DNA of 29,359 nucleotides from a virus, in IMG/VR virus record IMGVR_UViG_3300037149_000092, positions 1 through 29,359 of that record; one strand, written 5' to 3'. The notes beneath the pieces are model-generated. The model was not told the DNA's origin, searched no databases, and saw only the letters and a list, made by a program, of their open reading frames with translations. Numbering within the stretch: the stretch's first letter is position 1; each line of letters begins with the position of its first letter. This document shows, piece by piece, positions 2 to 15,366 of the stretch. The position numbers and the translations under genes are program-made.

Positions 2-220
2 GAAGGTGCAATCATTGCATTGGCTGACTTTATGGCTGTAGTATCGTATCTTTGGCAGGAAGCTAAGTTTGCAAGCCCTACCCTGTTCCTTAACTATAAG
101 ACTGTTGTGGAGTATCTTAAAACTTTTGAGCAGCCAAAGTTTATACTCCTCGTCCCCATTATCTATGAGCTTCGGGAAATCATTGAGGGAATTGTCAAGG
201 AAACCGGCCATGCAATCTAA
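2..220 (+). CDS. Hypothetical protein, 5' end outside window
   Basis: The reading frame is open from the window edge, so this is the C-terminal 72 residues of a longer protein. The visible part is mostly helical and moderately hydrophobic, with a run FILLVPIIYEL near the end that could be a buried helix rather than a clear membrane span. It overlaps the next gene by 11 bases in another frame, as is normal in this compact block. I do not recognise a family. The TTG at position 20 in the same frame is an unlikely start because the frame continues upstream. Confidence 0.6.
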   Translation, partial: EGAIIALADFMAVVSYLWQEAKFASPTLFLNYKTVVEYLKTFEQPKFILLVPIIYELREIIEGIVKETGHAI

Positions 221-593
221 ATGGAATCCTAATGGGGTGGGAGTTTGCAGAAATTGCGGGTTGATATCTGCCAATCACAAGAATGGTGAATGCCCTTTAC
301 CTTCTGGTGTGAAGAATTGGGGAAATACCAAAGCTGAGCGATCTAGAGATTATGGAGATCCGAAGATTAATCAGCACGCCACCGGACTAGCCTTTAGAGC
401 TATACTTTCTAATTGTTGGCAGATGAAGTTGCCGGAGATTCCCGATCATGTAGTGCCTCTACTGATGAACGCGCTCAAGGGTGTGCGGGCTGCGTACGAA
501 GGTAACGAGGATACAGATCCATGTGATACATATCACGATATGCATGGGTATACCAATATGGCAGAAGATATAGATCCAAGGATGCAAAAATGA
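210..593 (+). CDS. DUF6378-like phage protein with N-terminal zinc-binding motif
   Basis: A 127-residue protein. The ATG at 210 is preferred because AGGA lies 8 bases upstream; the longer upstream frame would run through the previous gene. Residues 13-28 contain a C-x2-C plus later Cys and His (CRNCG, NGECP), which suggests a zinc ribbon. Residues 53-123 carry the pattern typical of phage DUF6378-like domains: LPEIPDHVVPLLMNALKGVR followed by a conserved-looking Asp-rich segment (DTDPCDTYHDMHGY). The function of that domain is not established to my knowledge. The stop overlaps the start of the next gene (ATGA), so the two are probably co-translated. Family assignment is from memory of the motif. 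Confidence 0.65.
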   Translation: MQSKWNPNGVGVCRNCGLISANHKNGECPLPSGVKNWGNTKAERSRDYGDPKINQHATGLAFRAILSNCWQMKLPEIPDHVVPLLMNALKGVRAAYEGNEDTDPCDTYHDMHGYTNMAEDIDPRMQK

Positions 594-1336
594 ATATACT
601 ATTTACAGGCTGCACAACTGGCTTTGGAAAGCGAATTAAACTCGGCTTGGAAGCTCAAGGCCATAAGATTTTCGGAGTTGGACTGCAAGGTCCCGACTTC
701 TTTTATGATTTCGCCAAGATAGGGGTCGAAGGTCATCCAGATAATTGGGTAGAAAGTGTGTATACCCAAGCTGAAGAAGCTCTTGGTCCTATCGATTGTC
801 TCATCAACAACGCCGGCATCACTGCTATTGACTTTACAGCTCAGCACGAACTGCACAACTTCCAAGAGGTGCTATTCGTTAATCTAACTATACCTTGGAT
901 GTTGTCAAAAGGTCTCGTAGCTAGAGCGTGCAATTTAGGATATGGTGAATATCCAAAGCGCATCATCAACACATCCTCGATGGGTGCCACAGTTGCTCTA
1001 CGAGGCTCTCCGGGGTATTGCGCTTCAAAAGCTGGTCTCGAAGCAATTACGAAAGTGATGGCTAAAGAACTGGCTGGAACCATATCACCTTTCATTATAT
1101 GTGCAATTGCTCCAGGTGGCGTTGACGATACTGGCATGCAACGATATGCCGAACAGGAACTAGTTCGCACTCGTGGTTTCACACCAGAGAAAGCGGCGGT
1201 ATACAATCGGCAATCGCCTCTGGGTAGGAACATGACACACGAAGAAGTGTGGAAAATTTTTGATTTTGCAGTCAATCACATACCTGAGTATATGACAGGT
1301 ACAATTCTCAAGTGCGCTGGAGGGATGGGAATCTAG
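590..1336 (+). CDS. Short-chain dehydrogenase/reductase (SDR)
   Basis: A 248-residue NAD(P)-dependent oxidoreductase of classical SDR length. Visible motifs are the nucleotide-binding glycine motif TGCTTGFG (residues 6-13), NNAG (73-76), the catalytic Ser in NTSSMG (127-132) and YCASK with catalytic Tyr143 and Lys147, followed by the PGG segment after the sixth strand. All catalytic residues are present, so the enzyme is probably active. The substrate cannot be read from sequence. It is embedded between a DUF6378-like gene and a zinc-cysteine protein, and lies just upstream of the dCMP deaminase, ThyX homologue and glycosyltransferases. A role in making or altering a sugar or a modified base is therefore reasonable but inferred. 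Confidence 0.9.
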   Translation: MNILFTGCTTGFGKRIKLGLEAQGHKIFGVGLQGPDFFYDFAKIGVEGHPDNWVESVYTQAEEALGPIDCLINNAGITAIDFTAQHELHNFQEVLFVNLTIPWMLSKGLVARACNLGYGEYPKRIINTSSMGATVALRGSPGYCASKAGLEAITKVMAKELAGTISPFIICAIAPGGVDDTGMQRYAEQELVRTRGFTPEKAAVYNRQSPLGRNMTHEEVWKIFDFAVNHIPEYMTGTILKCAGGMGI

Positions 1337-1557
1337 TGGAATACATAAAAGATCCAAAACGGGATGATTGGCACAAGATTAGTGGCACTTATGAGGATGG
1401 GTATGCTACTGAATGTGGCAAGTTCATATCCATTACCGGAGCTTTAACCTCAGATACTATTGGAGGTTCCAACCAACCTGGCCATAATGTATCTACACAT
1501 ACATGCTTTGAGTGCTGGCATGGGAAGAAAGAACCTAAAGTTAATGTGCCGACCTGA
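1336..1557 (+). CDS. Small Cys/His-rich hypothetical protein
   Basis: A 73-residue protein. I chose the GTG at 1336 because it overlaps the preceding stop (TAGTG) and has GGAGGG about 11 bases upstream; a GTG at 1312 in the same frame lacks a good ribosome site. The C-terminal part has H-x-C-x2-C-x-H (HTCFECWH, residues 55-62) and an earlier ECGKF, which together could bind one zinc. The family resembles short phage proteins that start with a lysine/tryptophan-rich segment and an ECG motif, but I cannot name it. It overlaps the deaminase gene by 14 bases and is likely translated with it. Confidence 0.65.
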   Translation: MEYIKDPKRDDWHKISGTYEDGYATECGKFISITGALTSDTIGGSNQPGHNVSTHTCFECWHGKKEPKVNVPT

Positions 1558-1987
1558 TTGGCAAGAATATTTTATGGGTATTGCTATGCTGATTGCTCAG
1601 CGTGGTACATGTCCAAGACGAAAAGTTGGAGCTATTATCGTGGATCCTAATAATCGAATAATAGCTGGTGGATACGCAGCTTCTCCAAAAGGTCTTCCGC
1701 ATTGTGTCGATGTGGGATGTCTTATGGTGGACGGACATTGCTTGCGCACTGTACATGCCGAGCAGAATGCTATTATTCAATGTGCAACTGTGACGGGTAC
1801 ATGTCTTGGGACTACCATATATACAACCTGCCAGCCTTGCATTCATTGTGCTAAGATGATTATCAATGCAGGTATTCAGGCTGTGGTCATGGATGAAGAG
1901 TACATCGACTATGGTGTCGGAACTACCCCAACTGGCTTAGATATGCTGAAAGAGGCCGGTATTCATCTGGAATGGTATAAGCGATGA
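1544..1987 (+). CDS. Deoxycytidylate (dCMP) deaminase
   Basis: A 147-residue zinc enzyme that converts dCMP to dUMP, the substrate for thymidylate synthase. The ATG at 1544 gives the N-terminus MCRPDWQEYF, which fits the family; the longer upstream frame would extend far beyond usual length. The catalytic motif HAE is at 71-73 (HAEQNAI) and the zinc motif P-C-x2-C at 98-102 (QPCIHC). The segment GLPHC...GCLMVDGHCLRTV is typical of the dCMP deaminase branch rather than cytidine deaminase. It overlaps the following glycosyltransferase-like gene by 4 bases (ATGA). It supplies dUMP, which links it functionally to the ThyX homologue at 3878. Confidence 0.93.
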   Translation: MCRPDWQEYFMGIAMLIAQRGTCPRRKVGAIIVDPNNRIIAGGYAASPKGLPHCVDVGCLMVDGHCLRTVHAEQNAIIQCATVTGTCLGTTIYTTCQPCIHCAKMIINAGIQAVVMDEEYIDYGVGTTPTGLDMLKEAGIHLEWYKR

Positions 1988-2931
1988 TTACTCCAACCAA
2001 AGATAGTACTATTGTAGTTACCAGATGGCTAGGTCGTCCGCCGCGAAAGCAGTACATTAAACAAGTACGCACCCTACATCAATGGGCCCCATTATCTACT
2101 CATATGTTTGTGGCTTTTCATGGTAATGAGTCAATTGATGACTACACTCAATCTGCTCTGGATCAAGGATTGGCTATGGATTTGCGAGACGATGAGGATA
2201 ACGGTATTCAACCTCGCCTTACTCGTAAGATATTGCATTGGGCACTCAAACACAATTTGAAGTACATTGGTGTTCTGGATGATGATGCATATATTCGTTC
2301 ACCAGAGATCACTATCGATCGTATGCGTCAGAGTTTTGATAGAGGGGCAGGATCCACTGGACCTTTCGACAATTACATAAACTGGATTAAATTCAACAAT
2401 GCAGTTGAAGATCCTGTATACGAACTGCCAGCCCATCCTTGGTCCACTTGTGGATGCCAAATCTATTCAGTAGATGCATTACGACAATTCAAAAACCAGT
2501 GGTCCACTATGTGCCTTAATTCAACATGGCGGGTGGATTACCAATTCTGCCTTGGAGTTTGCCTTTATGGGTACCGAACATATGAATTTTGGAGCCCAGG
2601 GTACGACCATAAGATGTCCCAAGGTGTTGGCGCAAATTACGATGAATCATGGTTTATTCGCCGCCTTAAAGGGATGGCACAAGAGCACCAAGCTGCATGG
2701 GATATGTTCAAGGAAATTCCTAAAGGCAATTTAGTTGATGAGTTTCTTATTGAACAATTCGTTCGTGAATTCATTCGGTTGAACAACTTGGTATTAAAGT
2801 CTAAGGTAGACACTAAAAACTGGTCTATTCAACCTATATGGCATTCATACACAGTGAAATATCCTGTACGAGTAGCCAATGAAATTATGCCTGTAATATA
2901 TGATAAGTTGGGATTGGAGTTGCCACATTGA
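1984..2931 (+). CDS. Glycosyltransferase-like protein, DDD family, paralogue 1
   Basis: A 315-residue protein, first of three paralogues in this island. The N-terminus has a beta-strand followed by VTRWLGR. A hydrophobic strand then leads into VLDDDAYI, with acidic triad at 99-101. This resembles the metal-binding DxD of GT-A fold glycosyltransferases. Further shared motifs are STGPF (about 124-128) and WSTCGCQIYS (153-162), which recur in paralogues 2 and 3. It overlaps dCMP deaminase by 4 bases at the start and paralogue 2 by 4 bases at the end. Acceptor and sugar donor are unknown. Glycosyltransferase is inferred from the triad and topology; it is not a close match to a family I can name. 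Confidence 0.7.
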   Translation: MITPTKDSTIVVTRWLGRPPRKQYIKQVRTLHQWAPLSTHMFVAFHGNESIDDYTQSALDQGLAMDLRDDEDNGIQPRLTRKILHWALKHNLKYIGVLDDDAYIRSPEITIDRMRQSFDRGAGSTGPFDNYINWIKFNNAVEDPVYELPAHPWSTCGCQIYSVDALRQFKNQWSTMCLNSTWRVDYQFCLGVCLYGYRTYEFWSPGYDHKMSQGVGANYDESWFIRRLKGMAQEHQAAWDMFKEIPKGNLVDEFLIEQFVREFIRLNNLVLKSKVDTKNWSIQPIWHSYTVKYPVRVANEIMPVIYDKLGLELPH

Positions 2932-3869
2932 AAGATACTGTATTGTACATTACCAAATGGGGTAATCGAGTAGCTCGAAAACAATTTGAGCGTATGGTTA
3001 AGTCATATGGGGAATATCAAGCTAGCCCTATAGACTTGCAAATATCTTTTCATGGGGATAAGCCTATATATGATCCAGCGATGGATCTAGCTAAAAGTAT
3101 AGATATACCGATTATCCACTCCTCATTGAAATATTTTCCCGCTGTAAATGCTGCGCTAATACTTCGCGCGGCCAAACAGGGATATAAGTATATGGGATTT
3201 CTAGATGATGACTGTGCCATTTATGAGCCTACACTCTGCCATCAATCTATGATAGAAGCTTTCAATGCTGAAAGTCTTACCTGGTATTGGGATCACGTAC
3301 GTCCAGTAGGTGCAACTGGACCCTACGGCACTTATTGGCGCTGGTTACGTTACGACAACGACATGTCCCCTATTCAGGATAGTGGCCCCATTTGCCAATG
3401 GTCTACTGGCGGATGCCAAATCTATTCTGTGAAAGCTCTTATGGATACCCGACATTTATGGGAATCTGTAATGATCAACAGCCAACGATTTTGCGACATC
3501 ACTCTACAATTGTCTGTCGACATTGGAAAGTACTCTCGAAACTCATTTTTTCACCAGAGAATGGACCATAATCGATCTTATGGTATATCCACTGGAATAG
3601 ATGAAAAATGGTATATACGATCATTTAAGATGATTCACAATGATTACTCGTTTTTGGAAAAAAGCTTTGTAGCTAACAATGTGAATCCTGTATTTCTTGA
3701 ACAGGCAAAGAAGCTATGTTTAGGGGATTTTAAAGGCATATCAAAGTATGCATCAAAGCATGGAGTTAATCCAAGTACGTGGGTGATCAAGCCTTTAAGA
3801 ACTAAACAAGCTGACTTTTCTGAATTGTTTGATATATTTGATTTACAACCTATTCTCGGATTATCGTAG
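2928..3869 (+). CDS. Glycosyltransferase-like protein, DDD family, paralogue 2
   Basis: A 313-residue protein that starts with a rare TTG overlapping the previous stop (TTGA); GGAG sits about 8 bases upstream and the N-terminus MKDTVLYITKW matches paralogue 3 (MKDTLLIITRW), which supports this start. The acidic triad is in FLDDDCAIYE (93-95). GATGPYG (128-134) and QWSTGGCQIYS (157-167) are the shared family motifs. The C-terminal third is poorly conserved between paralogues and may hold acceptor specificity. It sits directly upstream of the ThyX homologue, which has its own strong ribosome site. Confidence 0.7.
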   Translation: MKDTVLYITKWGNRVARKQFERMVKSYGEYQASPIDLQISFHGDKPIYDPAMDLAKSIDIPIIHSSLKYFPAVNAALILRAAKQGYKYMGFLDDDCAIYEPTLCHQSMIEAFNAESLTWYWDHVRPVGATGPYGTYWRWLRYDNDMSPIQDSGPICQWSTGGCQIYSVKALMDTRHLWESVMINSQRFCDITLQLSVDIGKYSRNSFFHQRMDHNRSYGISTGIDEKWYIRSFKMIHNDYSFLEKSFVANNVNPVFLEQAKKLCLGDFKGISKYASKHGVNPSTWVIKPLRTKQADFSELFDIFDLQPILGLS

Positions 3870-3877
3870 GAGATACA

Positions 3878-5107
3878 ATGGAAGATCCAAGACCTCTAAA
3901 GGTCACACTTATATCGAGCACTACTTATCCGCTTCCGACCCTTTACTATGTATGGGAGCAGTCACGCAGCAATCGACAATTGCCTACCCCTCAGGATATC
4001 GACTTTCTTCTAAATGTCGAACCCGACAAAACTAATCTTGGGACATATGCATTTGTACTGACTATGCTTGGTCACGAGTGCGATCTAAAAGATTCAAGTA
4101 CCATCAAAGCTCAATTAGCTATTTTTCGCCAGAAGTTTGTCGACACAATCGACATGCTCTTGAACGAAGCAGTTCCGGTAACTGAGAACATCCACTTTAC
4201 CTTCGCTTTCGAAAACTGCCCGATCACTCTACGAGAGCAACTCGTTCGGCATCGTATCGGAACTCATATTGATCCACGTGTTGGTGTGGACATTGTAGTT
4301 ATGGATGTGATCCCTGACCTGGCCGAGAGTAGTTGGTGGTCTCAAACAAGCCGGGTGGTGCCTTGGGATACTTTCTATCAGGAAGGTCGATATATACTTC
4401 CTGACAGTATTGATAACACTGAGTGCAGTGCCCCTCAGGCATTTGTAGATGGGCGCTCTGGATATGGATATTCACGCAAAGATGTGTACCTTGAAGTTTT
4501 GGCTACACTAGAGGAGGCTTATGATAACCTTGTCAAATCTGGTGTACCTCTTGAAGACGCTCGCAATCTGATTCCTCTTGGAGCAACTCATTCAATTACC
4601 TGGAATCTCAATCTCAAGGCAATGATGCACATCTTCGGCAAGCGTAGTTGCTGGATTGCTCAAGCCAATCTCTGGGAAGAAGCTATGGCGCAAATGATTC
4701 AAGAACTGGTTAAAAAGGTGCATCCAGTAATGGGCACATTGTTGCAGCCAATCTGTATGAAGCGTGGTAAGTTCGTAGACTGCCCAGTGAAAGGTACTAA
4801 CCACGATCGTATAAAAGGTTGTGATGGAGATATGCCTCCGTGCCCTTTATATCTGCGATATCATACAAAGGATGCTGTAGATACATATTTCTCTGGAAAG
4901 GATGCTAATGGAACTTGGATACCTCCTGGCCCGAAAAGATCTGGATTACCTTTGGCTGAACAATATATTCCAGCATCTGATGCACTCAAATGGGCGGCCC
5001 CGACAGTGCGTGGGAAATTGATGATGACGGATAATGCCACCCGCTTCGGACGACTGTGGCAGTTGAATGCGTTCGATCCTAAGATTGGAGTAGACGAGTC
5101 TCGATGA
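3878..5107 (+). CDS. ThyX-like flavin-dependent thymidylate synthase homologue, enlarged
   Basis: A 409-residue protein with AGGAG six bases before ATG. ThyX makes dTMP from dUMP using methylenetetrahydrofolate, FAD and NADPH. The ThyX hallmark LREQLVRHR is present (RHR at 124-126), with SSWWSQTSR (151-159) as the likely equivalent of the following S-rich signature. The C-terminal signature ARNLIP...NLNLKAMMHIFGKR...AQ is at 228-262. Two things are unusual. About 17 extra residues separate RHR from the serine signature. About 130 residues follow the usual ThyX end, including Cys293, 302, 315 and 322, which may bind a metal. Bacterial ThyX is usually about 220-250 residues. The gene lies between DDD glycosyltransferase-like paralogues, so a non-standard product such as a hydroxymethylated pyrimidine is possible but unproven. 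Confidence 0.85.
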   Translation: MEDPRPLKVTLISSTTYPLPTLYYVWEQSRSNRQLPTPQDIDFLLNVEPDKTNLGTYAFVLTMLGHECDLKDSSTIKAQLAIFRQKFVDTIDMLLNEAVPVTENIHFTFAFENCPITLREQLVRHRIGTHIDPRVGVDIVVMDVIPDLAESSWWSQTSRVVPWDTFYQEGRYILPDSIDNTECSAPQAFVDGRSGYGYSRKDVYLEVLATLEEAYDNLVKSGVPLEDARNLIPLGATHSITWNLNLKAMMHIFGKRSCWIAQANLWEEAMAQMIQELVKKVHPVMGTLLQPICMKRGKFVDCPVKGTNHDRIKGCDGDMPPCPLYLRYHTKDAVDTYFSGKDANGTWIPPGPKRSGLPLAEQYIPASDALKWAAPTVRGKLMMTDNATRFGRLWQLNAFDPKIGVDESR

Positions 5108-5922
5108 AGGATACTCTGCTCATAATCACCCGCTGGCTGAATAGAGATCCAATGCCAGAATTCGAGAAGACAATGCTAGATTACCCAGAGTGGTGTGCAA
5201 CCTCTATAGATCTAGCATTGTCTGTTCATGGAGATATTAATCCAGATGACAAAAGTATTATATATGCAAACCATATCGGTATGCCTATTTACGAGACTAA
5301 CGATCTGGTGTTCCCACGAGTAATTGCAAACCTTTTGACGCGATTTCTTACGACTAAGTATCGTTATATAGGATTTTTAGATGATGACGCCTATTTAGGT
5401 AATCCTCAGCGATTTTCAGATCAATTACACGCTGCGTTTTTGGAGCCTGCATACGCATGGGACACCGGCTGGGAAGTGCCCTGTGGCGCCACCGGACCTA
5501 TAGCATATAAAGGCTTGTATGGAGAAACCATCACATATCCTGAGACAGGAGATTGGTCAGCTAGTGGTTGCCAGCTTTACACCAGAGAAGCTCTTGCAGA
5601 TAGTGTTGAAGGGTGGTATCCGGTACTTACTCGATGCAAACGTATAGCGGCCCCCATTATTGGAATGTGCATTGAATTGACAAACATGGGGCATACTAGA
5701 TTCTATCTGGATGAATTTAAACATAGACGAGCTACTCAGTATATGCAAACCGTTCAAGAATTCAATATGGGATTGCATCAGATAGAATATGACTATAATA
5801 TGCTTCGAGATCGGTTTCGATGTACTCCGTATGAAGCTAAGTTTGATACTGAAATATCTCGCAAAGCTGCGATGGATATCCTTGTCTTAAAAGATTATAT
5901 GAAGAGGCATAAATTAAAATGA
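5104..5922 (+). CDS. Glycosyltransferase-like protein, DDD family, paralogue 3
   Basis: A 272-residue protein, the shortest of the three paralogues. It starts with ATG overlapping the ThyX stop (ATGA), so the two are probably translationally coupled. Family motifs are ITRWLNR at 8-14, SVHGD at 40-44, FLDDDAYLGN with triad at 93-95, CGATGP at 127-132 and WSASGCQLYT at 151-160. The C-terminal region is about 40 residues shorter than in paralogues 1 and 2. The tight coupling to the ThyX homologue is the strongest sequence argument that this family works on the product of the nucleotide genes, though it is only positional evidence. Confidence 0.7.
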   Translation: MKDTLLIITRWLNRDPMPEFEKTMLDYPEWCATSIDLALSVHGDINPDDKSIIYANHIGMPIYETNDLVFPRVIANLLTRFLTTKYRYIGFLDDDAYLGNPQRFSDQLHAAFLEPAYAWDTGWEVPCGATGPIAYKGLYGETITYPETGDWSASGCQLYTREALADSVEGWYPVLTRCKRIAAPIIGMCIELTNMGHTRFYLDEFKHRRATQYMQTVQEFNMGLHQIEYDYNMLRDRFRCTPYEAKFDTEISRKAAMDILVLKDYMKRHKLK

Positions 5923-6860
5923 CCATGATTATAGATCCTCTGGGAAGAACAGCTACACATGTAACTCGGTACATACCTAAGCATCAATATGATGTAGCTG
6001 TTTGCATTGTAGCTAGCCATGGGTATGAATCTTGGTTGTATGGTGCATTAAACTCATTCAGACAGAACGCAGACTTTGAACCCTGCAGTGTATATGTATT
6101 TATGCTTAGCGGATCACCAGAATTACATGCCATATGCAATAAATTTAATGCCTGCGTAATCCCATGTGTACCTCTAGAGCCTCTAGCTGCGTGGTCTAAG
6201 TCTGTACTGTATATTGCAGCTTCTGCACTTCCTGAATATGAGTATTTTCTATGTCTTGATGTAGATATACTGGTCCTAAAATCCATAAGAGAATTGCGAT
6301 CAATGATGATGGCAACTCCTATGCAAATAGGATTCTCTAAAGATTGGTATATGTATAAACTACTAGGGTCTAAATCCCAATCTTTAAGGGATGTATGGAA
6401 ACGACGATACGGGTACATGGGTAATCCAGATCTAATTGGTCTCACAGAAGATAATCCGATAAGTCATATGCATCAAATAGTAAATGATGGTATATTCTTT
6501 TCCAGAAAAATAGCTCTTGAACTTCTTGAACAGAGTATATATCAACTATTTGATCGGTATCCAAATGAATTAAATAAGCCGCCAGCATACAGAAATCAGG
6601 GATATTTGAACATAGCTTTAGCTAATCTTCGACATGCTAAATTAGTAGACTATGTGCAATTACCTGAACAATACAATGTGCAAGTGGCCACTCCAGGTAT
6701 TCGTTGTGAAGATTTGTCTAATGGCAGAGTATATTTTCGAGAGGTTAATTCAGTTCACATAGCACATTTTTCGGCTGATACTGGTAAACGTAAATTGCCC
6801 AGGCTTCGTCAATATTATGCAAAAATAAACGAAAATCTTATGGGTACAGAGCAGGAATAA
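5919..6860 (+). CDS. GT8-like glycosyltransferase
   Basis: A 313-residue GT-A fold glycosyltransferase, different from the three DDD paralogues. It has the N-terminal strand DVAVCIVASHGY, a nucleotide-sugar binding layout, and the DxD motif in FLCLDVDILVL (DVD at 114-116). A C-terminal VHIAHFSADTGKRK resembles the His-containing metal/phosphate motif near the end of GT8-type enzymes. The start overlaps the previous stop (ATGA). Its donor is probably a nucleotide sugar, its acceptor unknown. As the last gene of the island it might extend a sugar placed by one of the DDD proteins, but that is inference. Confidence 0.8.
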   Translation: MTMIIDPLGRTATHVTRYIPKHQYDVAVCIVASHGYESWLYGALNSFRQNADFEPCSVYVFMLSGSPELHAICNKFNACVIPCVPLEPLAAWSKSVLYIAASALPEYEYFLCLDVDILVLKSIRELRSMMMATPMQIGFSKDWYMYKLLGSKSQSLRDVWKRRYGYMGNPDLIGLTEDNPISHMHQIVNDGIFFSRKIALELLEQSIYQLFDRYPNELNKPPAYRNQGYLNIALANLRHAKLVDYVQLPEQYNVQVATPGIRCEDLSNGRVYFREVNSVHIAHFSADTGKRKLPRLRQYYAKINENLMGTEQE

Positions 6861-7138: not shown

Positions 7139-7804
7139 ATGCCGTCGACTATCCATCTACATATCTTCAAAGCAGAGATTATAGGGGACATTCTAAGAGG
7201 ATTACCTTTAAACCTGCTAGGGGATATTCATATCCATCTCGGGGAGGATCTCCAACCCGATATACTACGCCAGATTCTGGCAGAGGAGTCTAAAATATTG
7301 TCCGCAATCGATGATCTGAAAGCCGCCTTTAGCACCGAGGCCAAGAGTATTTCCGATGTTTCAACCGCCGTAACCAATCTCGCCAACCGCTTGACCACCG
7401 CTTCCAACACCGGAGACGATGACGAAGTCGAAGCTGTCGCGCAAGAGTTGACTAAACAGGCCGCTTCACTCGAAACCGTCGCCACCAATATCAATGGTCT
7501 TGCGGTTGCAGCGCCGACAGTTGGCGCTCCGACTCTTGCATCCATTGCAATCTCTCCGAGTACGGTGTCTCTCGCCCCAAGCGGTACCCAGGTCTTCACC
7601 ATCACAGGTACCGGCTCCGATGGCAATCCATATACTCTCGAAGATTCCGAACTCGCCGCAACCGACTCCGAAGGACCTCTGACCGTCTCCGGCGGGCAGA
7701 TTTCCTACGAAGCTCCGGGCACTGTTGGCTCCGATACGATCTCCGTCACAGCGACCGTTGGTTCAGCCACGGCGTCAGCGATGGCGTCGGTCACGATATC
7801 CTAA
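7139..7804 (+). CDS. Coiled-coil plus bacterial Ig-like domain protein, possible virion decoration
   Basis: A 221-residue protein in two parts. Residues about 45-125 form a helical segment with coiled-coil character and many Asp/Glu/Ser/Thr residues. Residues about 132-221 look like a single Big_2-type Ig-like domain: IAISPSTVSLAPSGTQVFTITG through a last strand ending SVTIS. Such domains are common on phage capsid and tail surface proteins, where they bind carbohydrates weakly. The codon use is richer in G and C at third positions than neighbouring genes and resembles the scaffold and capsid genes, suggesting high expression. It sits outside the structural module, before DNA polymerase, which is odd for a virion protein. 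Confidence 0.65.
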   Translation: MPSTIHLHIFKAEIIGDILRGLPLNLLGDIHIHLGEDLQPDILRQILAEESKILSAIDDLKAAFSTEAKSISDVSTAVTNLANRLTTASNTGDDDEVEAVAQELTKQAASLETVATNINGLAVAAPTVGAPTLASIAISPSTVSLAPSGTQVFTITGTGSDGNPYTLEDSELAATDSEGPLTVSGGQISYEAPGTVGSDTISVTATVGSATASAMASVTIS

Positions 7805-7898: not shown

Positions 7899-10034
7899 AT
7901 GAGTTTCCAGTGCGGAGACTTTCTCGCTATTGACACCGAAACAACTGGTCTGTTTAGATATCACGGTCATGAGCCATTCGCTGTGAGCATGTGCAATGAG
8001 GATGGTGAGACCTGGTATACAGAATGGCCTGTTGATCCTTACACCAGAGAAGTATTCCCCAACTCCTCCGATCTTGATTTTATAGACTCATTCACTTCCA
8101 ATCCTAGTATCACAAAAGTCATGTTCAATGACAAGTTTGATATGGGAATGTTAGAGACGATAGGACTTACAATTACCGGTCCTGTTGAGGATGGGTCTAT
8201 TGGAATCCGCTGTTACAATTCCTCAGCTGATAATAACGGACTTAAAGAAGCTGCGTTCATGTACTGCGGTATCGCCAAAGATGACGAGACTGAATTACAT
8301 GATGCAGTTAAATTGGCTCGTAAGATATGTATGGCCCGTGGATATAATCTAGCTGAAACCTATCACGCAGACTATTGGCTTCCACGACATCTGCACACTA
8401 GAAGCCGAAGAGGTATGTTTAGTTATCTCCCAGATGAATGGGCTGAATATTGTGAAATCTACGCTCGACTAGATGCACGTCGTACAATGGTCTTGTGGAA
8501 GTTTCTTGAAAAAGCTTTTGCAGCGGACGAAATTGTTTACCTAGATTATCTAAACGAACGTAAACTATCTCCGATTATTCAAAAGATGGAAGCTCGTGGA
8601 GCAGCCATAGATCCTGGGAAGAACAATCGAGAACTTGCCAAAGCTGAGAAACTCGTTGCTGAATGTCGCGAGCGTATGTTCAAGATTGTTGGTCGATCGT
8701 TTAACTCCGGCTCTCCTAAGCAACTTGCTGAGCTCTTATACAAAGAGCGAGGTCTTACCCCAACCACTTTTACTGCATCAGGCCAACCCTCCACAGACTG
8801 GAAGTCTATTCTCAAACTTTCAGCTGATCCAGTCTGTCGAGAACTTCTCACGGATAGGGCTCAGTCCAAAGCTATCTCCACCTTCTTCTCGAAATACCCA
8901 ACTCTCTGGGCAGAAGATCCTCTAGTTCCACCTGGAAGAACTTGGTCTGAAGTAGACAAGAATGGTGATCCTATATACATAGATCATCCTCAAGGATATG
9001 TGATCCATCCAAACATAAATCAATGCGGTACGACTACCGGTCGTTTCAGCATGTCCAATCCTAACCTGCAGAATATTGCCAATGCGACAACTAATCCTAG
9101 AGGTAATGACCCAATACATGCCCGACAGGTATTCGGACCCAGGCCTGGATATTACTGGCTCATGGGTGATTTTGCCCAGCAAGAACTCCGAATATTCGCT
9201 GACATTGCAAATGTTAAGCCGCTCATTTCCGCTATACTTGCTGGAGAGGACCCTAACACTGCAAACGCCAATCTCATTTGGGGTGGGAAAGGTAATGAAT
9301 CTGCGCTTCATGCTGCTGTCCAATCCGGTGAGTTCATTAATGTGGCGCCTAGCACGCCTGCGGTGGGGGAAATGTGGGAGAAAATCGGATGGGAATACGG
9401 TATGGGTGCAGGAGGTGCTTATTCTGGACCTGTTCTCGACGCCGCTGAACGGTGGCTCGCACTTTACGACTACAAAATAGTAGCTGCTGAAGGTAGTATT
9501 GGTAAGAAGATGACTCGTAATAAGTCAAAGATGACTATATTTAACGAGATATACGGTGGTGGGACTGGTCCGTTGATGGAGTTGATGTACATTGATGAAG
9601 AAACTGCTCGTCAATACAAAAAAGATCTAAATTGTCGTTATCCAGAAGTGAAGCAGTATCAGCAGTACGCAATGTCGCGTGCTACTATGTGTGGGTACGT
9701 GGTGACCCGATATGGCAAGAAACTGCGTGCGGATCCCAATCGAATATACGCAGTAGTGAACTGGGAAGTTCAAGGTTCCGCAGCTGGTATGATGAAGGAT
9801 GGTATGATTCGATGTGATGAGTATATTAAGGACACAGGTCTGGATGCCCACATTCTTATAACCATTCATGATGAACTCATTTTTGAAGTGCGTAAAGAAC
9901 ATTGTTTCAAGTGGTTCGTTCGCGGACTCAAAGAGACAATGGAAGATACCGGTGGTCGATTCCGATTACCGATGGAAGTAGAGTTTTCCAAAGCCGATGT
10001 TCAATGGGACATGAAAGAAGCTATACACATATGA
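7899..10034 (+). CDS. DNA polymerase I family (family A) replicative polymerase
   Basis: A 711-residue replicative polymerase with 3'-5' proofreading and no 5'-3' exonuclease domain, as in T7-like polymerases. Exo motifs: AIDTETTG (Asp12, Glu14), FNDKFD (77-79) and YARLD (188-192). Polymerase motifs: A is GDFAQQELRI (Asp424), B is RNKSKMTIFNEIYGG (540-554) and C is IHDE (656-659). All catalytic residues are present. The distance between motifs A and B is about 115 residues, roughly 65 more than usual, so there is an insertion in the fingers region (about 450-530). The ribosome site is GAGAGG. It overlaps the next gene by 4 bases and is followed by the primase-helicase, making a replication operon. 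Confidence 0.96.
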   Translation: MSFQCGDFLAIDTETTGLFRYHGHEPFAVSMCNEDGETWYTEWPVDPYTREVFPNSSDLDFIDSFTSNPSITKVMFNDKFDMGMLETIGLTITGPVEDGSIGIRCYNSSADNNGLKEAAFMYCGIAKDDETELHDAVKLARKICMARGYNLAETYHADYWLPRHLHTRSRRGMFSYLPDEWAEYCEIYARLDARRTMVLWKFLEKAFAADEIVYLDYLNERKLSPIIQKMEARGAAIDPGKNNRELAKAEKLVAECRERMFKIVGRSFNSGSPKQLAELLYKERGLTPTTFTASGQPSTDWKSILKLSADPVCRELLTDRAQSKAISTFFSKYPTLWAEDPLVPPGRTWSEVDKNGDPIYIDHPQGYVIHPNINQCGTTTGRFSMSNPNLQNIANATTNPRGNDPIHARQVFGPRPGYYWLMGDFAQQELRIFADIANVKPLISAILAGEDPNTANANLIWGGKGNESALHAAVQSGEFINVAPSTPAVGEMWEKIGWEYGMGAGGAYSGPVLDAAERWLALYDYKIVAAEGSIGKKMTRNKSKMTIFNEIYGGGTGPLMELMYIDEETARQYKKDLNCRYPEVKQYQQYAMSRATMCGYVVTRYGKKLRADPNRIYAVVNWEVQGSAAGMMKDGMIRCDEYIKDTGLDAHILITIHDELIFEVRKEHCFKWFVRGLKETMEDTGGRFRLPMEVEFSKADVQWDMKEAIHI

Positions 10035-10558
10035 GCGTAATAATTATAGGTCCTGCCTTAGGGCAATCATTTCGATGGCGATGCACAGACTGCAAAGAAG
10101 AGATGGTATCCCTAAATGCACCTAAGCATACATGTGCATCCAATATGCCACCTTTGGATGTTCCAGCATCCATACCCTATATGTGGACACCTGCTATGTT
10201 AGCGATGATCACACGAAATACATACTGCAAGATGACCGGAGTTCCGGTAGTTTCCTGGGAAGAAATGGGAGCCCATGATAAAGCTCTATTTACTAACCTA
10301 GGGTATGCAGTAGTGGAAGCTACGGGTATGAGCGCTGCATATTCAGGTGTAGCAAAGCTAATCAATGCAGCTATTATTTATCGGTATTATCAGACCTGTG
10401 CAGATCGAACACGGAGTATGATGGAAGATACTCATAACGGTGTGATGCGTGCAGTGAATGAGCTCAAGATGGATATGGAAGCTGTTAAGATAATGGCTTC
10501 CAGTGCTATTAGCACCGTGGAGAATAGGGAAGAAGTTACTAATGTCGACACCAAGTGA
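10031..10558 (+). CDS. Hypothetical protein with N-terminal zinc motif, replication operon
   Basis: A 175-residue protein starting at the ATG that overlaps the polymerase stop (ATGA). Residues 17-38 hold C-x2-C and H-x-C (CTDCKEE, KHTCAS), a likely zinc-binding unit. The rest is predicted helical, with an amphipathic C-terminal helix (NELKMDMEAVKIMASSAI) that may oligomerise. No family is recognised. It lies between DNA polymerase and primase-helicase and overlaps the latter by 17 bases, so a replication accessory role such as a clamp, loader or single-strand binding partner is possible but not shown. Confidence 0.65.
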   Translation: MSVIIIGPALGQSFRWRCTDCKEEMVSLNAPKHTCASNMPPLDVPASIPYMWTPAMLAMITRNTYCKMTGVPVVSWEEMGAHDKALFTNLGYAVVEATGMSAAYSGVAKLINAAIIYRYYQTCADRTRSMMEDTHNGVMRAVNELKMDMEAVKIMASSAISTVENREEVTNVDTK

Positions 10559-12695
10559 GGTTCCGGCTAAACTACGTCCCTTCGTAGCGCTAGGATTTGA
10601 TTACGTAGCTTCCAAGCGTCGGGACAACCAGGCCTATGGTCAATGTGTATTTTGTGGCAAGCCAGACAAAATGCATATTAATATTGAGAACGGTAAGTGG
10701 AACTGCTTTGCAGGTCATTGCGGATTAAAAGGTAATGTATATACTTTTCTCCAGGAATGGTACAATCTACAAGAGCGCCTCAATATGGTAACACCTGCAT
10801 TGTGGAACTCTTTAGCTTCTAACCGACAGTTGCCCGAGCTAGCCCTAAGGGCGACTGGATTTGTATGGGACGGTATGAAGTGGTGGTTGCCCATATACAA
10901 TCCAACTGGAACACTTGTAACGTTTAGGTGGTATCAACTCGGCAATAAACTTTGGGCATTGGATGGTATGGATCTTGGTATTTGGAATGCCCCAGCGCTA
11001 TTTGATGAGAGATACCTAGACTATGAAGTTTGGATTGAAGAAGGTGAATGGGATGGTATTGCCACCCAGGAAATGTTGCGCCGAGAAGGTGTAGATGGCA
11101 TCGCTGTTGGTATACCAGGATGCACAGTTTTCAAAGCTAAATGGGCTCAATGGTTTCGTGGACGTAAGATTGTGTGCGCTTACGATCACGATATCGATGG
11201 GCAGAAGGGTGTTCGTAGGGTTCACGCACTTACCAAAACAGACATAATATCATATCATTGGATCAAATGGCCAGATCAAATTCCCTCTGGATATGATATG
11301 CGTCAGTTCTATATCGACAGCGGCACTATAACCATAGCCAGAACATTCGCCGAGAAATTGGATACCGTAGATGCAGACACAACTGATAGTGTTGGCGATC
11401 CTATTGTCAGTACGGCCAGCCTACCGATGTTATCCACAGGAACTAGACCCACTTATGAAAGTGTTCTATCAGTATTCGCTAAATATCTGTATCTTACTAC
11501 TGATCTGGAAGATGCTCTAAAGATACTATTGGCTACTTGTATATCTGTACAACTTGAAGGTGACCCTCTGTGGATTCACTTGGCTGGACCTCCTGGGAGT
11601 GGAAAGACCGAGTTGCTACTATCGGTATCCAATTCACCGTGGGCACACTTTGAATCTAGTGTATCATCCCATCAGTTGGTATCAGGATGGGCATCTAAGG
11701 AAGATCCATCCCTATTGCCTCGGTTAGATAACCGTAATTTGATCATCAAAGATCTGACAGAGTTGTTGAAGGGTGCTAAGTCTGAAAAGGAATCTGTGTT
11801 CAGCATTCTTCGAGGTGCGTATGATGGATCAGTTAATCGAGGTTTTGGTCACGGTGTGCAGCGTCGATATGATGTGCACTTCAATATCGTAACAGGTGTG
11901 ACCCAAGCTATCTTCGCTGATGTAGGGTCTGTACTAGGGGAGAGGTTTCTGATCTATCACTTGGTGAAGGGAGTTGGTTTCAATGCCGATAATGAAATCT
12001 ATGCGGCACTAACTAATTCTCCCCAGGGAAATACGATGCGTGCTGATCTTGGTAAGGCAGCTTCGGATTTTTTGAACTACCAAATTGATCCTTCAGATAC
12101 ACCTGAACTCAGCGACACTTGGATACGACGACTGGTGCATTTGTCTCAGTTTGTCAGTATGTTGCGTGCTGGTGTGGAACGAGACGCTGCACGTGATCGA
12201 CTTACTTACCGAGCACAACATGAAATGGGTACTCGTATTGCCAAACAGTTGAAAAAGCTGTTGCAAGGCTTATCTCTATTACGATATCCAGCTGAAATCA
12301 CTGAGAATGCATATAAGTTGCTCGTTCGGGTAGCTTTGGATTCTTGTATTGGATTTAATCTCGATATAGTTACTGAACTATTCAATCGAGAAGGTCGTAC
12401 ATTTCCTGAGTTGTCAGAAGCCTGTCGAATACCAATGACGACTTTGCGTGGTGCATGCGAAGATATGGAGCAACTTGGTGTTCTACGACGTGAGAAGGTA
12501 GCTAATGTAGCTGGTCGAGGTGCTCCAATGGCGTTGTGGAGTCTTACAGACAGTATTAAACGGCATTGGTACGGCGCTGGTTTAGATCGAGATCCCGCTA
12601 TACGTCAAACAGCTTCTCTCCAGAAAGATGCGTTCATCGCAGCACGCACTAAATCTGCAGGGAACAGTAAATATGATGTGGTTGGAATAGTATAG
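10542..12695 (+). CDS. Primase-helicase: zinc finger, TOPRIM, AAA+ ATPase, winged helix
   Basis: A 717-residue multidomain protein. ATG 10542 is chosen because the residues upstream of it in the longer frame do not resemble a primase N-terminus and GGAAG lies about 13 bases upstream. The zinc finger is CVFC...CFAGHC (35-60), as in DnaG-type primases. The TOPRIM fold has EEGEWDG (166-172) and DHDIDG (215-220). The ATPase has Walker A GPPGSGKT (349-356), Walker B-like LIIKDLTEL (400-408) and a GERF motif (466-469) that may contain the arginine finger. A C-terminal winged helix is suggested by TFPELSEACRIPMTTLRGAC. The ATPase looks AAA+-like, not the RecA-like DnaB fold of T7 gp4, which makes the fusion unusual. 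Confidence 0.88.
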   Translation: MSTPSEVPAKLRPFVALGFDYVASKRRDNQAYGQCVFCGKPDKMHINIENGKWNCFAGHCGLKGNVYTFLQEWYNLQERLNMVTPALWNSLASNRQLPELALRATGFVWDGMKWWLPIYNPTGTLVTFRWYQLGNKLWALDGMDLGIWNAPALFDERYLDYEVWIEEGEWDGIATQEMLRREGVDGIAVGIPGCTVFKAKWAQWFRGRKIVCAYDHDIDGQKGVRRVHALTKTDIISYHWIKWPDQIPSGYDMRQFYIDSGTITIARTFAEKLDTVDADTTDSVGDPIVSTASLPMLSTGTRPTYESVLSVFAKYLYLTTDLEDALKILLATCISVQLEGDPLWIHLAGPPGSGKTELLLSVSNSPWAHFESSVSSHQLVSGWASKEDPSLLPRLDNRNLIIKDLTELLKGAKSEKESVFSILRGAYDGSVNRGFGHGVQRRYDVHFNIVTGVTQAIFADVGSVLGERFLIYHLVKGVGFNADNEIYAALTNSPQGNTMRADLGKAASDFLNYQIDPSDTPELSDTWIRRLVHLSQFVSMLRAGVERDAARDRLTYRAQHEMGTRIAKQLKKLLQGLSLLRYPAEITENAYKLLVRVALDSCIGFNLDIVTELFNREGRTFPELSEACRIPMTTLRGACEDMEQLGVLRREKVANVAGRGAPMALWSLTDSIKRHWYGAGLDRDPAIRQTASLQKDAFIAARTKSAGNSKYDVVGIV

Positions 12696-12704
12696 GAGGT
12701 AAAT

Positions 12705-12890
12705 ATGGCAGATGTGCCAACAAGATTTGCAGGTGATTGCCCTATCCATAAGAGTAAGGTGATTATGAAACTTAACCCAACTGCTCGTGGACACGAGTGG
12801 TTGGGTGTATGTACTGATGGACATACAGTTGTATTACGTATGTCTAAGATTGAATCCGTGGCATGTGAAGATGAATGGTATTATTATTAG
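12705..12890 (+). CDS. Small hypothetical Cys/His protein
   Basis: A 61-residue protein with a near-perfect ribosome site (GGAGG five bases before ATG). It contains CPIH, GVC and a late Cys with several His residues, so a small zinc-binding fold is possible. It ends in WYYY. The gene starts 9 bases after the primase-helicase and closes the tightly packed replication block; a GC-rich, structured non-coding segment follows. No family is recognised. Confidence 0.65.
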   Translation: MADVPTRFAGDCPIHKSKVIMKLNPTARGHEWLGVCTDGHTVVLRMSKIESVACEDEWYYY

Positions 12891-12930
12891 CTGAAGCTGT
12901 GCCGGCGCCCGGCGCCCGGCGACGACCACG

Positions 12931-12955
12931 ACCACCAACAAGACGGCGCGATTTA
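12931..12955 (+). repeat. Non-coding CGCG repeat, copy a
   Basis: This copy reads ACCACCAACAAG followed by ACGGCGCGATTTA. It belongs to a dispersed family with consensus ACC(A)CCAACAAA-AACGCGCG-(A/T)TTAAT, found only between genes (other copies at 13011, 13043, 13571, 13637, 13724, 13985). Confidence 0.5.
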
Positions 12956-13010
12956 GCCGCCTAGCAGCCCCGTACACGCGTCTTGTGCTCGTCCTGGTAC
13001 TAGGACCAGG

Positions 13011-13032
13011 ACCACCAAAAACGGCGCGTGTA
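13011..13032 (+). repeat. Non-coding CGCG repeat, copy b
   Basis: ACCACCAAAA followed by ACGGCGCGTGTA. It overlaps the right arm of the outer inverted repeat at 12971-13034. A shorter relative, AGCGCGTTTAATTAA, lies just downstream at 13043-13057. Confidence 0.45.
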
Positions 13033-13067
13033 CGGCCCGTGTAGCGCGTTTAATTAAAGGAGATTCG

Positions 13068-13568
13068 ATGACATCTGAAGACTTAATTGAGGTACAGCGA
13101 TTATGCAAACGCTGTGCTATTGGAATAATGGCCGAGAGTGAAAACGGAGATCCCATCACTCTTTCGATCGTACCACAGCGTGCATGTGTTGTGTGTCGTA
13201 CTTTAGCGCGTCCAACTTCTGAGCAAGACCCATACGAAGTAACTACTACCGTATTGATGGATGTGCGTATCCGTCGACAAGAACAGGATTTAAAGCATGG
13301 CGATGCTCAAGCCAAACATCCAACTTTCTGGATAGCGATCATAGGTGAGGAGTTCGGACACGCATCTCGTGCGGCAATCCGTCTCACTACTAGAGATGGT
13401 TCACCATTCGATCTGCGTGATGAATATCTTGATGTGGCTGCTACTGCGATAGCTGCGATTGAAGATCTAGATCGTGTAGGGTATGATGAGCTTCATATTG
13501 AAGATCCTGTACCTATTACGCTCCCTGCATCTACCAATGGGAAGTGGAAATACCACGGACTCTCATAA
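13068..13568 (+). CDS. MazG-like nucleotide pyrophosphohydrolase-related protein with Cys4 N-terminus
   Basis: A 166-residue protein with ribosome site GGAG. The C-terminal part (about 67-138) matches phage MazG-like proteins: RIRRQEQDLKHGDAQAKHP, then WIAIIGEEFGHASRAA, then LRDEYLDVAATAIAAIEDLDR. These form the helices that carry the metal-binding acidic residues of all-alpha NTP pyrophosphatases (Glu94, Glu95, Glu119, Asp122). His98 stands where this family usually has a Glu (EExGE). The N-terminal 45 residues add C-x2-C pairs at 13-16 and 40-43, a likely zinc ribbon. It could remove unwanted nucleotides or ppGpp; activity is uncertain because of the substitution. It is the last + strand gene before the convergent region. 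Confidence 0.75.
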   Translation: MTSEDLIEVQRLCKRCAIGIMAESENGDPITLSIVPQRACVVCRTLARPTSEQDPYEVTTTVLMDVRIRRQEQDLKHGDAQAKHPTFWIAIIGEEFGHASRAAIRLTTRDGSPFDLRDEYLDVAATAIAAIEDLDRVGYDELHIEDPVPITLPASTNGKWKYHGLS

Positions 13569-13570
13569 CT

Positions 13571-13596
13571 TCAAACCCACAATAACGCGCGTTTAA
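13571..13596 (+). repeat. Non-coding CGCG repeat, copy d
   Basis: CAAACCCACAATAACGCG followed by CGTTTAAT. It differs by one base from the copy at 13638-13663, 67 bases away. It contains the 12-mer AAACCCACAATA that also occurs at the junctions of the 88-bp repeats near 18 kb. Confidence 0.6.
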
Positions 13597-13636
13597 TCGG
13601 CGCGGTTTGTCCGTAATACTGCTCTGATTACGACGA

Positions 13637-13663
13637 CCAAACCCACGATAACGCGCGTTTAAT
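13637..13663 (+). repeat. Non-coding CGCG repeat, copy e
   Basis: CCAAACCCACGATAACGCG followed by CGTTTAAT; the near-identical partner of copy d. Two such close copies in the same orientation make chance unlikely. Confidence 0.6.
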
Positions 13664-13723
13664 TCCCCGTCAATCCTCTAAATTTCGTTACTATCAACCA
13701 AGTACACGCGTTGGGTTATACAA

Positions 13724-13755
13724 GAACGGGCGATTAATGATTATAATCGCGTTCC
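13724..13755. repeat. Non-coding CGCG repeat, inverted pair
   Basis: The left half reads GAACGGGCGATTAAT. The right half, read on the opposite strand, is GGAACGCGATTATAA. The two halves can pair (AACG and CGATTA with TAATCG and CGTT, two-base bulge), so one element is present as an inverted pair. Confidence 0.45.
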
Positions 13756-13802
13756 TGCTGGTGGTAGTAGTACCAGCAGTTTCTGCTGGCGATCGTGTGT
13801 AG
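13737..13802 (+). CDS. Possible 21-residue hydrophobic peptide
   Basis: ATG to TAG encodes MIIIAFLLVVVVPAVSAGDRV, which looks like a signal peptide or tiny membrane peptide with a cleavage-like AVSA. The ribosome site is poor (AACGGG, 8 bases away) and the coding bases overlap a repeat and a stem-loop, so this may be chance. It is listed because such micro-genes are missed by length cut-offs. Confidence 0.25.
   Translation: MIIIAFLLVVVVPAVSAGDRV
13755..13779 (+). terminator. Stem-loop after the MazG-like gene
   Basis: An 8-bp perfect stem CTGCTGGT/ACCAGCAG with a 9-base loop, followed by TTTCTG. It is a candidate terminator for the + strand block, although the T-run is short. Confidence 0.35.
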
Positions 13803-13984
13803 GCGGTATTAAAGGGTATACGGAATGCACTCACGCATGCGCGTACACCTACATAATACATCACTATTATACATGCCTAACCTAAACTCGTATGTATCCC
13901 TGACCTATTCCATTTTACTTACTTATACATACAGTTATTTATTCTAAAGTCAATTTATCAATCGCCAGCGGAAGCCGCGCCGCC

Positions 13985-14008
13985 ACCACCAACAAAAACG
14001 CGATTAAT
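13985..14008 (+). repeat. Non-coding CGCG repeat, copy h
   Basis: ACCACCAACAAAAACG followed by CGATTAAT; close to copy a. It lies immediately before the 10-bp triloop hairpin at 14011. Confidence 0.5.
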
Positions 14009-14010
14009 AC

Positions 14011-14033
14011 CGTAGTATACGTAGTATACTACG
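14011..14033. terminator. Triloop hairpin, 10-bp stem
   Basis: CGTAGTATAC, loop GTA, GTATACTACG: a perfect stem with a 3-base loop. With the hairpin at 14071 it may act as a bidirectional terminator between convergent operons or as a protein-binding cruciform. No T-run follows on either strand. Confidence 0.4.
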
Positions 14034-14070
14034 AGGGCTCGCGCGTCGATATGCGTATACATAATCTTCT

Positions 14071-14089
14071 GTCAATACTACGTATTGAC
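14071..14089. terminator. Triloop hairpin, 8-bp stem
   Basis: GTCAATAC, loop TAC, GTATTGAC: a perfect stem 22 bases after the stop codon of the sigma gene on the minus strand. Its position fits termination of the minus operon, but there is no T-run. Confidence 0.4.
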
Positions 14090-14111
14090 CGCGCGCGTAA
14101 GGGAAGGGAAT

Positions 14112-14723
14112 TTATCGGTCTACAACTGTGGGGACTTTCTTCTTGAGGCGTACTAATGCGTTGTCCACGCACTTACGATTGCATCGAAGTTCCATACCAA
14201 TTTCTCGATAGGACTTGCCAGTCTGATATCGAATGAGAACGTCCCATTCGAAGTTGCTCAATCGGTTCTTAACAGCTTTGTCAATCTTTACCACGTCTTC
14301 ACGCTTGATCGCAGATACTTCAGGTGTATCTGCATTCTTGTCCATTAGTGTATCTTCAAGTGAAGTGCCTTCTTCACCTTCACCCATACCAACTGGAGTA
14401 CTGAAAGATACCGATTCATTCAGAAGAGTATACTTTTGTCGAGTTGCAGTCTTTACTGAATCAATCAAATTCCGTGTTATGACTATCTTGGCGTACGTAC
14501 CAAATCCAACGCCACGCTCTGGCTTAAAGTCTACAACTGCTTTCCATAACCCTAGCTTAGCCGTCTGGAGAAGATCTTCAAGATCTCCTCCAGGGATAAA
14601 GTACGCCTTGGCTCTCGATCGAACGAGATTGTCATATCGCTTTAACATGGTTTCAGACGCGGCAACATCACCGCGTTGCGCACGTCTGATAACCAGTTCA
14701 TCTGAGAAGTTCTCGTAGTTCAC
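14112..14723 (-). CDS. Sigma-H-like RNA polymerase sigma factor
   Basis: A 203-residue sigma-70 family protein resembling Bacillus SigH in its region 2 to region 4 layout. Region 2 is GGDLEDLLQTAKLGLWKAVVDF (about 45-66), then FGTYAKIVITRNLIDSVKTATRQK (74-97) for -10 recognition. Region 4 is SNFEWDVLIRYQTGKSYREIGMEL...VDNALVRLKKKV (156-197). The GTG start at 14723 is chosen because it overlaps the previous stop as GTGA and has GGGAG 5 bases upstream. It would redirect host RNA polymerase to phage promoters, probably late ones. It is the last gene of the minus operon. Confidence 0.88.
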   Translation of the reverse strand: MNYENFSDELVIRRAQRGDVAASETMLKRYDNLVRSRAKAYFIPGGDLEDLLQTAKLGLWKAVVDFKPERGVGFGTYAKIVITRNLIDSVKTATRQKYTLLNESVSFSTPVGMGEGEEGTSLEDTLMDKNADTPEVSAIKREDVVKIDKAVKNRLSNFEWDVLIRYQTGKSYREIGMELRCNRKCVDNALVRLKKKVPTVVDR

Positions 14724-14890
14724 TTGGTCTCCCGTAGAAACACCACAACTTCGATACACACTGAGTCGAAGTTTTCACTTGCCCACTTGGCTTGCATATA
14801 AGTATCTTGCTCGTCTTCCATACCGAAGGCTTTCATCGCTGCCACTTCAGCCTCCAGCAATTCATTACGGAGTTGCAGATATCTACTCAT
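14720..14890 (-). CDS. Small helical hypothetical protein
   Basis: A 56-residue protein rich in Glu, Ala and Met; the first 30 residues form a likely amphipathic helix (YLQLRNELLEAEVAAMKAF). The ATG at 14890 overlaps the end of the preceding 32-residue gene by 8 bases and gives tight coupling. An upstream start in the same frame at 14953 would overlap that gene almost fully and has no ribosome site. Its stop overlaps the sigma start (GTGA), so it may influence sigma translation. No family is recognised; an anti-sigma role is conceivable but without evidence. Confidence 0.55.
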   Translation of the reverse strand: MSRYLQLRNELLEAEVAAMKAFGMEDEQDTYMQAKWASENFDSVCIEVVVFLRETK

Positions 14891-15311: not shown

Positions 15312-15330
15312 AGGATTCTCCCCAGAGAAT

Positions 15331-15357: not shown

Positions 15358-15366
15358 TACACACCG

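Follow-up and report, generated by a model that had tools for sequence, protein, structure and literature searches.

Gene content of the island

The subject of this report is a gene island near the start of a 29,359-base virus record (IMGVR_UViG_3300037149_000092), hereafter the window, a tailed-phage contig that carries terminase, portal, major head protein, PolA and primase genes. The island is a candidate pyrimidine-modification cassette, in which a virus-only form of the flavin-dependent enzyme ThyX stands among a short-chain dehydrogenase/reductase (SDR), a deoxycytidylate (dCMP) deaminase, three proteins that share a DDD motif (GTa, GTb and GTc) and a GT8-like protein. A first-pass annotation, made from the sequence, had claimed eight genes in this order, and reading of the open reading frames (ORFs) bore it out, all on the plus strand:

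590..1336, + strand: SDR oxidoreductase, FabG-like, 248 aa (PF00106, 88 bits)
1336..1557, + strand: small Cys/His protein, ORF with GTG start
1544..1987, + strand: dCMP deaminase (PF00383, 91.5 bits; PHROG 174, E 7e-50; HAE and PCxxC zinc motifs)
1984..2931, + strand: GTa, DDD-motif glycosyltransferase-like paralogue 1
2928..3869, + strand: GTb, DDD-motif paralogue 2, TTG start within a TTGA overlap
3878..5107, + strand: ThyX, virus-only subfamily (PF02511, 76.8 bits; cut-off 24.8)
5104..5922, + strand: GTc, DDD-motif paralogue 3
5919..6860, + strand: GT8-like protein (PF01501, 20.8 bits; under the 24.3 cut-off)

By their Pfam and PHROG scores, the SDR, the dCMP deaminase and the ThyX homologue belong to firm families, as had been proposed, and the translated SDR carries the TGxxxGxG, NNAG, Ser and YxxxK elements of classical SDRs. 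The small Cys/His protein had no match in Pfam and matched PHROG 6314 at E 0.015 only; its start is plausibly GTG 1336, with 1312 as an alternative; for the deaminase, ATG 1544 is a more plausible start than TTG 1460. The further claim that most junctions overlap also holds. ATGA overlaps were read between the upstream ORF and the SDR, the deaminase and GTa, ThyX and GTc, and GTc and the GT8-like gene; GTa and GTb meet at TTGA, and the SDR and the Cys/His protein at TAGTG. The exception is an 8-base gap between GTb and ThyX.

A virus-only ThyX subfamily

Canonical ThyX has a continuous motif spacing, RHR(x)7S. The window ThyX shares with canonical members of PF02511 the Thy1 domain, the RHR and the equivalents of the arginines that contact deoxyuridylate (dUMP), but it does not have this spacing and is therefore filed as a variant subfamily. 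Its signature is REQ-VRHR and S[WF]WSQ[ST][MS]R, set apart in most cases by 20 to 39 residues (25 in the window protein, whose second block reads SWWSQTSR), compared with 2-3 residues in reference phage ThyX. The subfamily thus differs from canonical ThyX by an insertion of about 20 residues past the RHR, by the REQ ahead of it and by extra conserved cysteines (C258, C293, C302 and C322). Kin without the insertion are found in L016, L111, L113 and L114, and among the first copies of the tandem pairs described below.

The window protein has its RHR at 124-126, together with R159, R229 and R256 and with cysteines towards its C-terminus. For reference numbering we used R90, R147 and R174, which we take to be the corresponding arginines of Thermotoga maritima ThyX. 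All 62 sequences keep Arg at the positions of R229 and R256, which correspond to R147 and R174, so that substrate binding looks retained in the subfamily. The position equated with the flavin-contacting Arg165 of T. maritima, in contrast to canonical ThyX, is mostly not Arg, and is often Ala, Gly or Ser.

Alignment searches placed the subfamily or its close kin in 60 viral loci, while no cellular relative was confirmed among 84,980 prokaryote species; of 14 pattern matches there, not one stood up to confirmation. Only alignment queries reached these relatives: scans of viral contigs with the single proteins ThyX, GTa, TerL and PolA gave no confirmed relative. Among isolated phages, the best match to the window ThyX is that of Listeria phage LIS04, at 25% identity. 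No published description of the subfamily was recognised in the literature searched, a coverage that leaves most subscription journals outside.

Neighbourhoods of ThyX in related viruses

Neighbourhood clusters were drawn from 1,025 ORFs of the loci and the window, and families were counted among 50 viral records, 17 to 88 kb in length. Every close relative is a metagenomic or viral-contig fragment, which makes absences weak. Two settings recur. In the PolA-type viruses, the order is Sak4, SSB, nucleoside 2-deoxyribosyltransferase (NDT), YfbR, in some cases DUF6378, then a slot, ThyX, PolA and primase. In 12 loci, the slot is taken by a radical SAM protein (PF04055, 37 bits), in 6 by an SDR and in L093 by a DDD relative; it can also be empty. 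In the PolIII-type viruses, with small permutations, a FAD enzyme, an NT5C-type deoxynucleotidase (dUTPase/NT5C protein), ThyX, a class III aminotransferase and a thymidylate-kinase-like protein precede PolIII.

The window has the PolA-type setting, with the SDR, the Cys protein, the deaminase, GTa and GTb placed 5' of ThyX, and GTc and the GT8-like gene 3' of it. The island is wider than 590-6860: it starts after the DUF6378 region and a cut YfbR-like nucleotidase, and runs towards PolA and primase:

20..220, + strand: YfbR-like 5'-deoxynucleotidase, C-terminal piece of a gene cut by the contig start (tblastn to L061, E 9e-12, and to others)
330..593, + strand: DUF6378 region of an ORF ending at 593, start unsure (PF19905, 30.1 bits)
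7899..10034, + strand: PolA-type DNA polymerase (PHROG 17, E 5e-84), constant downstream partner of ThyX in the lineage
10503..12695, + strand: primase/helicase-like protein (PHROG 239, E 7e-7; synteny with relatives)

A full-length homologue of the YfbR-like piece is encoded in L015 (PF12917, 69 bits), and the DUF6378 cluster is present in 11 loci, the window among them.

The SDR is closely tied to ThyX. PF00106 occurs in 6 of the 50 records, and all six SDRs adjoin ThyX or, in L111, lie within about 4 kb of it; given the length of the records, linkage by chance is unlikely. The SDRs are mostly 23-51% alike, and the ThyX tree requires at least four changes of SDR label. By its ThyX, the window is closest to L061 and L110, which encode SDRs 51% and 50% identical to that of the window, located 3' of ThyX, between it and PolA, in the absence of any DDD gene; as these two loci are near copies (89%), the independent cases number fewer than six. 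In L111, the SDR is grouped with a methyltransferase, ThyX and a dCMP deaminase. Apparent GT4 and PIG-L-like genes in the same locus came from motif reading; Pfam supports neither, and a search of the PDB with the GT4-like protein returned nothing. GT2 genes, present in 5 of the 50 records, are listed at positions away from ThyX.

A second pairing of a DDD gene with ThyX was found in L093. A hidden Markov model built from the three DDD proteins of the window matched one ORF outside it among the 1,025, L093_6877_7992 (E 1.8e-8), which has the same DDD motif and whose stop codon runs into the start of ThyX in an ATGA overlap. This virus sits on a different branch of the ThyX tree from the window.

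In L011 (6117-10695) and about 25 similar loci, the FAD enzyme, the dUTPase/NT5C protein, ThyX, an acetylornithine-type class III aminotransferase and the thymidylate-kinase-like protein lie beside PolIII, in what looks like a pathway to an amine-bearing pyrimidine. In L085, the gene that separates ThyX from the aminotransferase (8771-10186) encodes an NAD-dependent epimerase/dehydratase (PF01370, 79 bits) that resembles a UDP-sugar enzyme. Between ThyX and PolA, L065 (1678-2628) encodes an N6/N4 DNA methylase (PF01555, 175 bits).

The DDD proteins and the GT8-like protein

Of the four glycosyltransferase-like genes in the first-pass annotation, three proved to be true paralogues. GTa, GTb and GTc are 27-28% identical to one another (pairwise BLAST E 9e-37, 3e-36 and 3e-19) and have in common the DDD, G[AS]TGP and WS..GCQ.Y motifs. 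Their family assignment is less secure, since none matched a Pfam family, and the fourth protein scored under the PF01501 cut-off, so only the name GT8-like is used for it here. The GT8-like protein had no match in the PDB or among phages, GTa had none in the phage collection, and a profile of the DDD proteins gave no sequence match to the glycosyltransferases of the PDB. Alignment and DDD-pattern searches of viral and genome contigs confirmed no further member of the DDD family.

The DDD proteins are putative glycosyltransferases on the basis of the motif and a weak GT-A-like model. In this model (predicted local distance difference test, pLDDT, 54), a strand at 94-99 is followed by the DDD at 99-101 in a Rossmann-like N-terminal half, the arrangement expected of GT-A enzymes; a second model, with GTc first, was poorer (pLDDT 47). 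Foldseek matches to the first model, at a template modelling score of about 0.3, mix GT-A transferases and nucleotidyltransferases, and the T4 enzymes AGT and BGT are absent among the 50 hits listed. The GC content of the glycosyltransferase-like genes is 0.38-0.42, compared with 0.46 for ThyX. They are AT-richer than SDR, ThyX and PolA, and so appear to have been added to an older SDR-ThyX-PolA set.

Comparison with known systems

Bacillus phage SP-15 has DNA with glycosylated dihydroxypentyl-uracil, namely 5-(4,5-dihydroxypentyl)uracil bearing glucose and phospho-glucuronolactone, and encodes two Thy1 proteins; its authors inferred the pathway and guessed that gp130 is the hydroxymethyl-dUMP synthase (PMC5977210). 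As in the window, an SDR (gp129) directly precedes the Thy1-family gp130, and a dCMP deaminase and glycosyltransferases are present. An NDT lies two genes before the SDR, and NDT is also found near ThyX in the relatives of the window. Unlike in the window, the sugar genes of SP-15 form a separate cluster. Listeria phage LIS04, by its record of the same genus as SP-15, has NDT and an exonuclease around ThyX.

The T-even phages, which carry glucosyl-hydroxymethylcytosine, combine a pyrimidine-modifying synthase, sugar transferases and dCMP deaminase, a combination that the window may share. T4 makes its hydroxymethylcytosine with a ThyA-type dCMP hydroxymethylase, whereas no ThyA was found among the island proteins compared with Pfam or in the 50 relatives. 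The well-known glycosylated phage pyrimidines are, to our knowledge, built on ThyA-type hydroxymethylases, and a flavin-dependent route based on ThyX has so far only been guessed at, for SP-15.

In Wifcevirus phages of Escherichia coli, such as Bas98 and FEC19, a single gene likewise separates the SDR from ThyX; the cluster, in the order ThyX, HAD protein, SDR, lies next to DNA polymerase genes. Their ThyX, unlike that of the window, has no insertion, and RTR replaces RHR. In Bas98 (L116, 6833-10784), these genes are accompanied by a nearby protein whose beginning resembles a FAD enzyme and which has no Pfam match. No gene in the Wifcevirus stretch read is annotated as a glycosyltransferase. 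Wifcevirus phages resist almost all restriction systems tested except EcoP1_I, and the mechanism is unexplained (PMC11990801).

Proposed pathway and alternative explanations

Our preferred reading, with a probability of about 0.5, is that the island is a modular cassette for pyrimidine modification that has a sugar branch in the window phage. Its product, sugar, acceptor and role are inferred from the gene content as follows. The dCMP deaminase would supply dUMP, to whose C5 the virus-specific ThyX would add a carbon group. The product would probably be other than plain thymidylate (dTMP), namely a 5-substituted dUMP that carries a reactive handle, e.g., 5-hydroxymethyl. Canonical ThyX gives hydroxymethyl-dUMP upon acid quench (PMC4913046), and a small change in the enzyme could thus make this compound a product. 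The SDR may set the oxidation state of the handle, from keto or aldehyde to alcohol or the reverse, and the YfbR-like nucleotidase may help to remove competing canonical deoxynucleoside monophosphates. The nearby PolA would then incorporate the modified nucleotide, and the DDD and GT8-like proteins would attach one or more sugars, which would shield the DNA from host nucleases.

The first-pass annotation had similarly proposed that the ThyX homologue makes a 5-substituted nucleotide which the glycosyltransferases decorate. Swappable modifying enzymes in one slot, the SDR-ThyX linkage and the DDD overlap in L093 speak for this proposal; the pairing of ThyX with glycosyltransferase-like genes is rare, and dCMP deaminase, found in 10 of the 50 records, has no special link to ThyX. 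The suggested check for co-occurrence of ThyX homologue and DDD genes thus yielded a second, overlapping pair, and none beyond it among the 1,025 ORFs. Homologous islands often lacking one partner had been named as an observation that would tell against the proposal. Taken literally, the islands do mostly lack the glycosyltransferase-like genes, and the sugar genes are optional; this fits a decorating branch that can be dispensed with, and also unrelated mosaicism.

Several points weigh against a sugar-bearing modification cassette. The pairing of DDD gene and ThyX is known from two viruses only, and 59 of the 60 relatives' loci have no detectable DDD relative. The glycosyltransferase assignment leans on the DDD motif and the model of pLDDT 54, for which Foldseek cannot separate transferases from nucleotidyltransferases. 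No sugar-nucleotide synthesis gene was identified within the window, and a modified base is proven for none of the relatives. SP-15 gp130, tried as an orthologue of the window ThyX, matched at E 0.005 over 45 aa, so that SP-15 is a functional parallel and not a family member. Finally, the RHR and the R147 and R174 equivalents are intact, which makes dTMP synthesis chemically possible.

This last point leads to the explanation that dCMP deaminase and ThyX provide an ordinary dTMP supply for fast replication, while virion proteins or the host surface are what the products of the sugar-transferase-like genes act on. ThyA (PF00303) occurs in none of the 50 relatives, and no ThyA-like protein was among the island proteins put to Pfam; the subfamily ThyX could therefore be the dTMP source, as this explanation expects. 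The scarcity of DDD relatives and the AT-rich glycosyltransferase-like genes, resembling later insertions, are also in line with an unrelated glycosylation. What it leaves unexplained is the company that ThyX keeps across viruses (SDR, radical SAM, or aminotransferase and FAD enzyme), the presence in two viruses of DDD genes overlapping or flanking ThyX, and the second Thy1 match in 6 of the 50 records (a weak piece in one of them, L114). In G061, the second Thy1 is of ordinary length, has the highest Thy1 score and lies 20 kb away, so that the subfamily ThyX need not supply dTMP there. On balance, ordinary dTMP supply appears unlikely, although it deserves serious consideration.

Tandem Thy1 genes were observed in L064, L075, L100, L103 and L112 (and L114); four of the five full pairs enclose a radical SAM gene. 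The first copy has no insertion and often lacks the first Arg of the RHR (VHR/THR, SFFSESHQ), a pattern suggestive of a partner subunit or of a second activity.

The DDD proteins might instead be sugar nucleotidyltransferases or other GT-A-like sugar activators, the modification being carried out by other enzymes. The top Foldseek matches do include GDP-mannose pyrophosphorylase and CMP-sugar synthetases beside glycosyltransferases, and a protein of phage Thanatos chosen by its glycosyltransferase fold proved to be a UDP-xylose pyrophosphorylase (PMC12838424). Three diverged copies together with a GT8-like gene, however, suit successive transfers better than a single activation, and the DDD following a strand would be as in GT-A transferases, which makes this explanation improbable. 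Equally improbable is a mosaic accident that left functionally unlinked sugar genes around ThyX: their lower GC and the sparse distribution of DDD genes would fit, but not the translational overlap 3' of ThyX, the close packing 5' of it, or the independent overlap in L093.

Beyond the window, a modification cassette of this kind would allow a more general proposal, which is held more tentatively. The virus-only ThyX subfamily may be the constant core of an unrecognised modular system for DNA-base hypermodification, in which ThyX supplies an activated 5-substituted dUMP and an exchangeable neighbour (radical SAM, SDR, aminotransferase and FAD enzyme, or DDD glycosyltransferases) sets the base; the window would then represent a sugar-bearing branch with an undescribed base. 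If this is true, a virus-only ThyX with interchangeable partners would open a route to several undescribed bases and constitute a source of DNA-modifying enzymes.

Other observations

Salinibacter phages were considered as kin or source of the island and set aside, as they share terminase and one marginal 39-aa match only. The palindrome avoidance ratio of the window by itself, 0.98 for 4-mers and 0.93 for 6-mers, is uninformative. Between the GT8-like gene and PolA, an ORF at 7139-7804 is GC-rich (0.54) and Ig-like in its C-terminal half, and a sigma-factor-like gene (PHROG 351, E 1e-26) lies on the minus strand at 14112-14759. In L011, the PolIII alpha frame (11083-15795) has an apparent intein-like insertion, with an HNH-like overlapping ORF inside.

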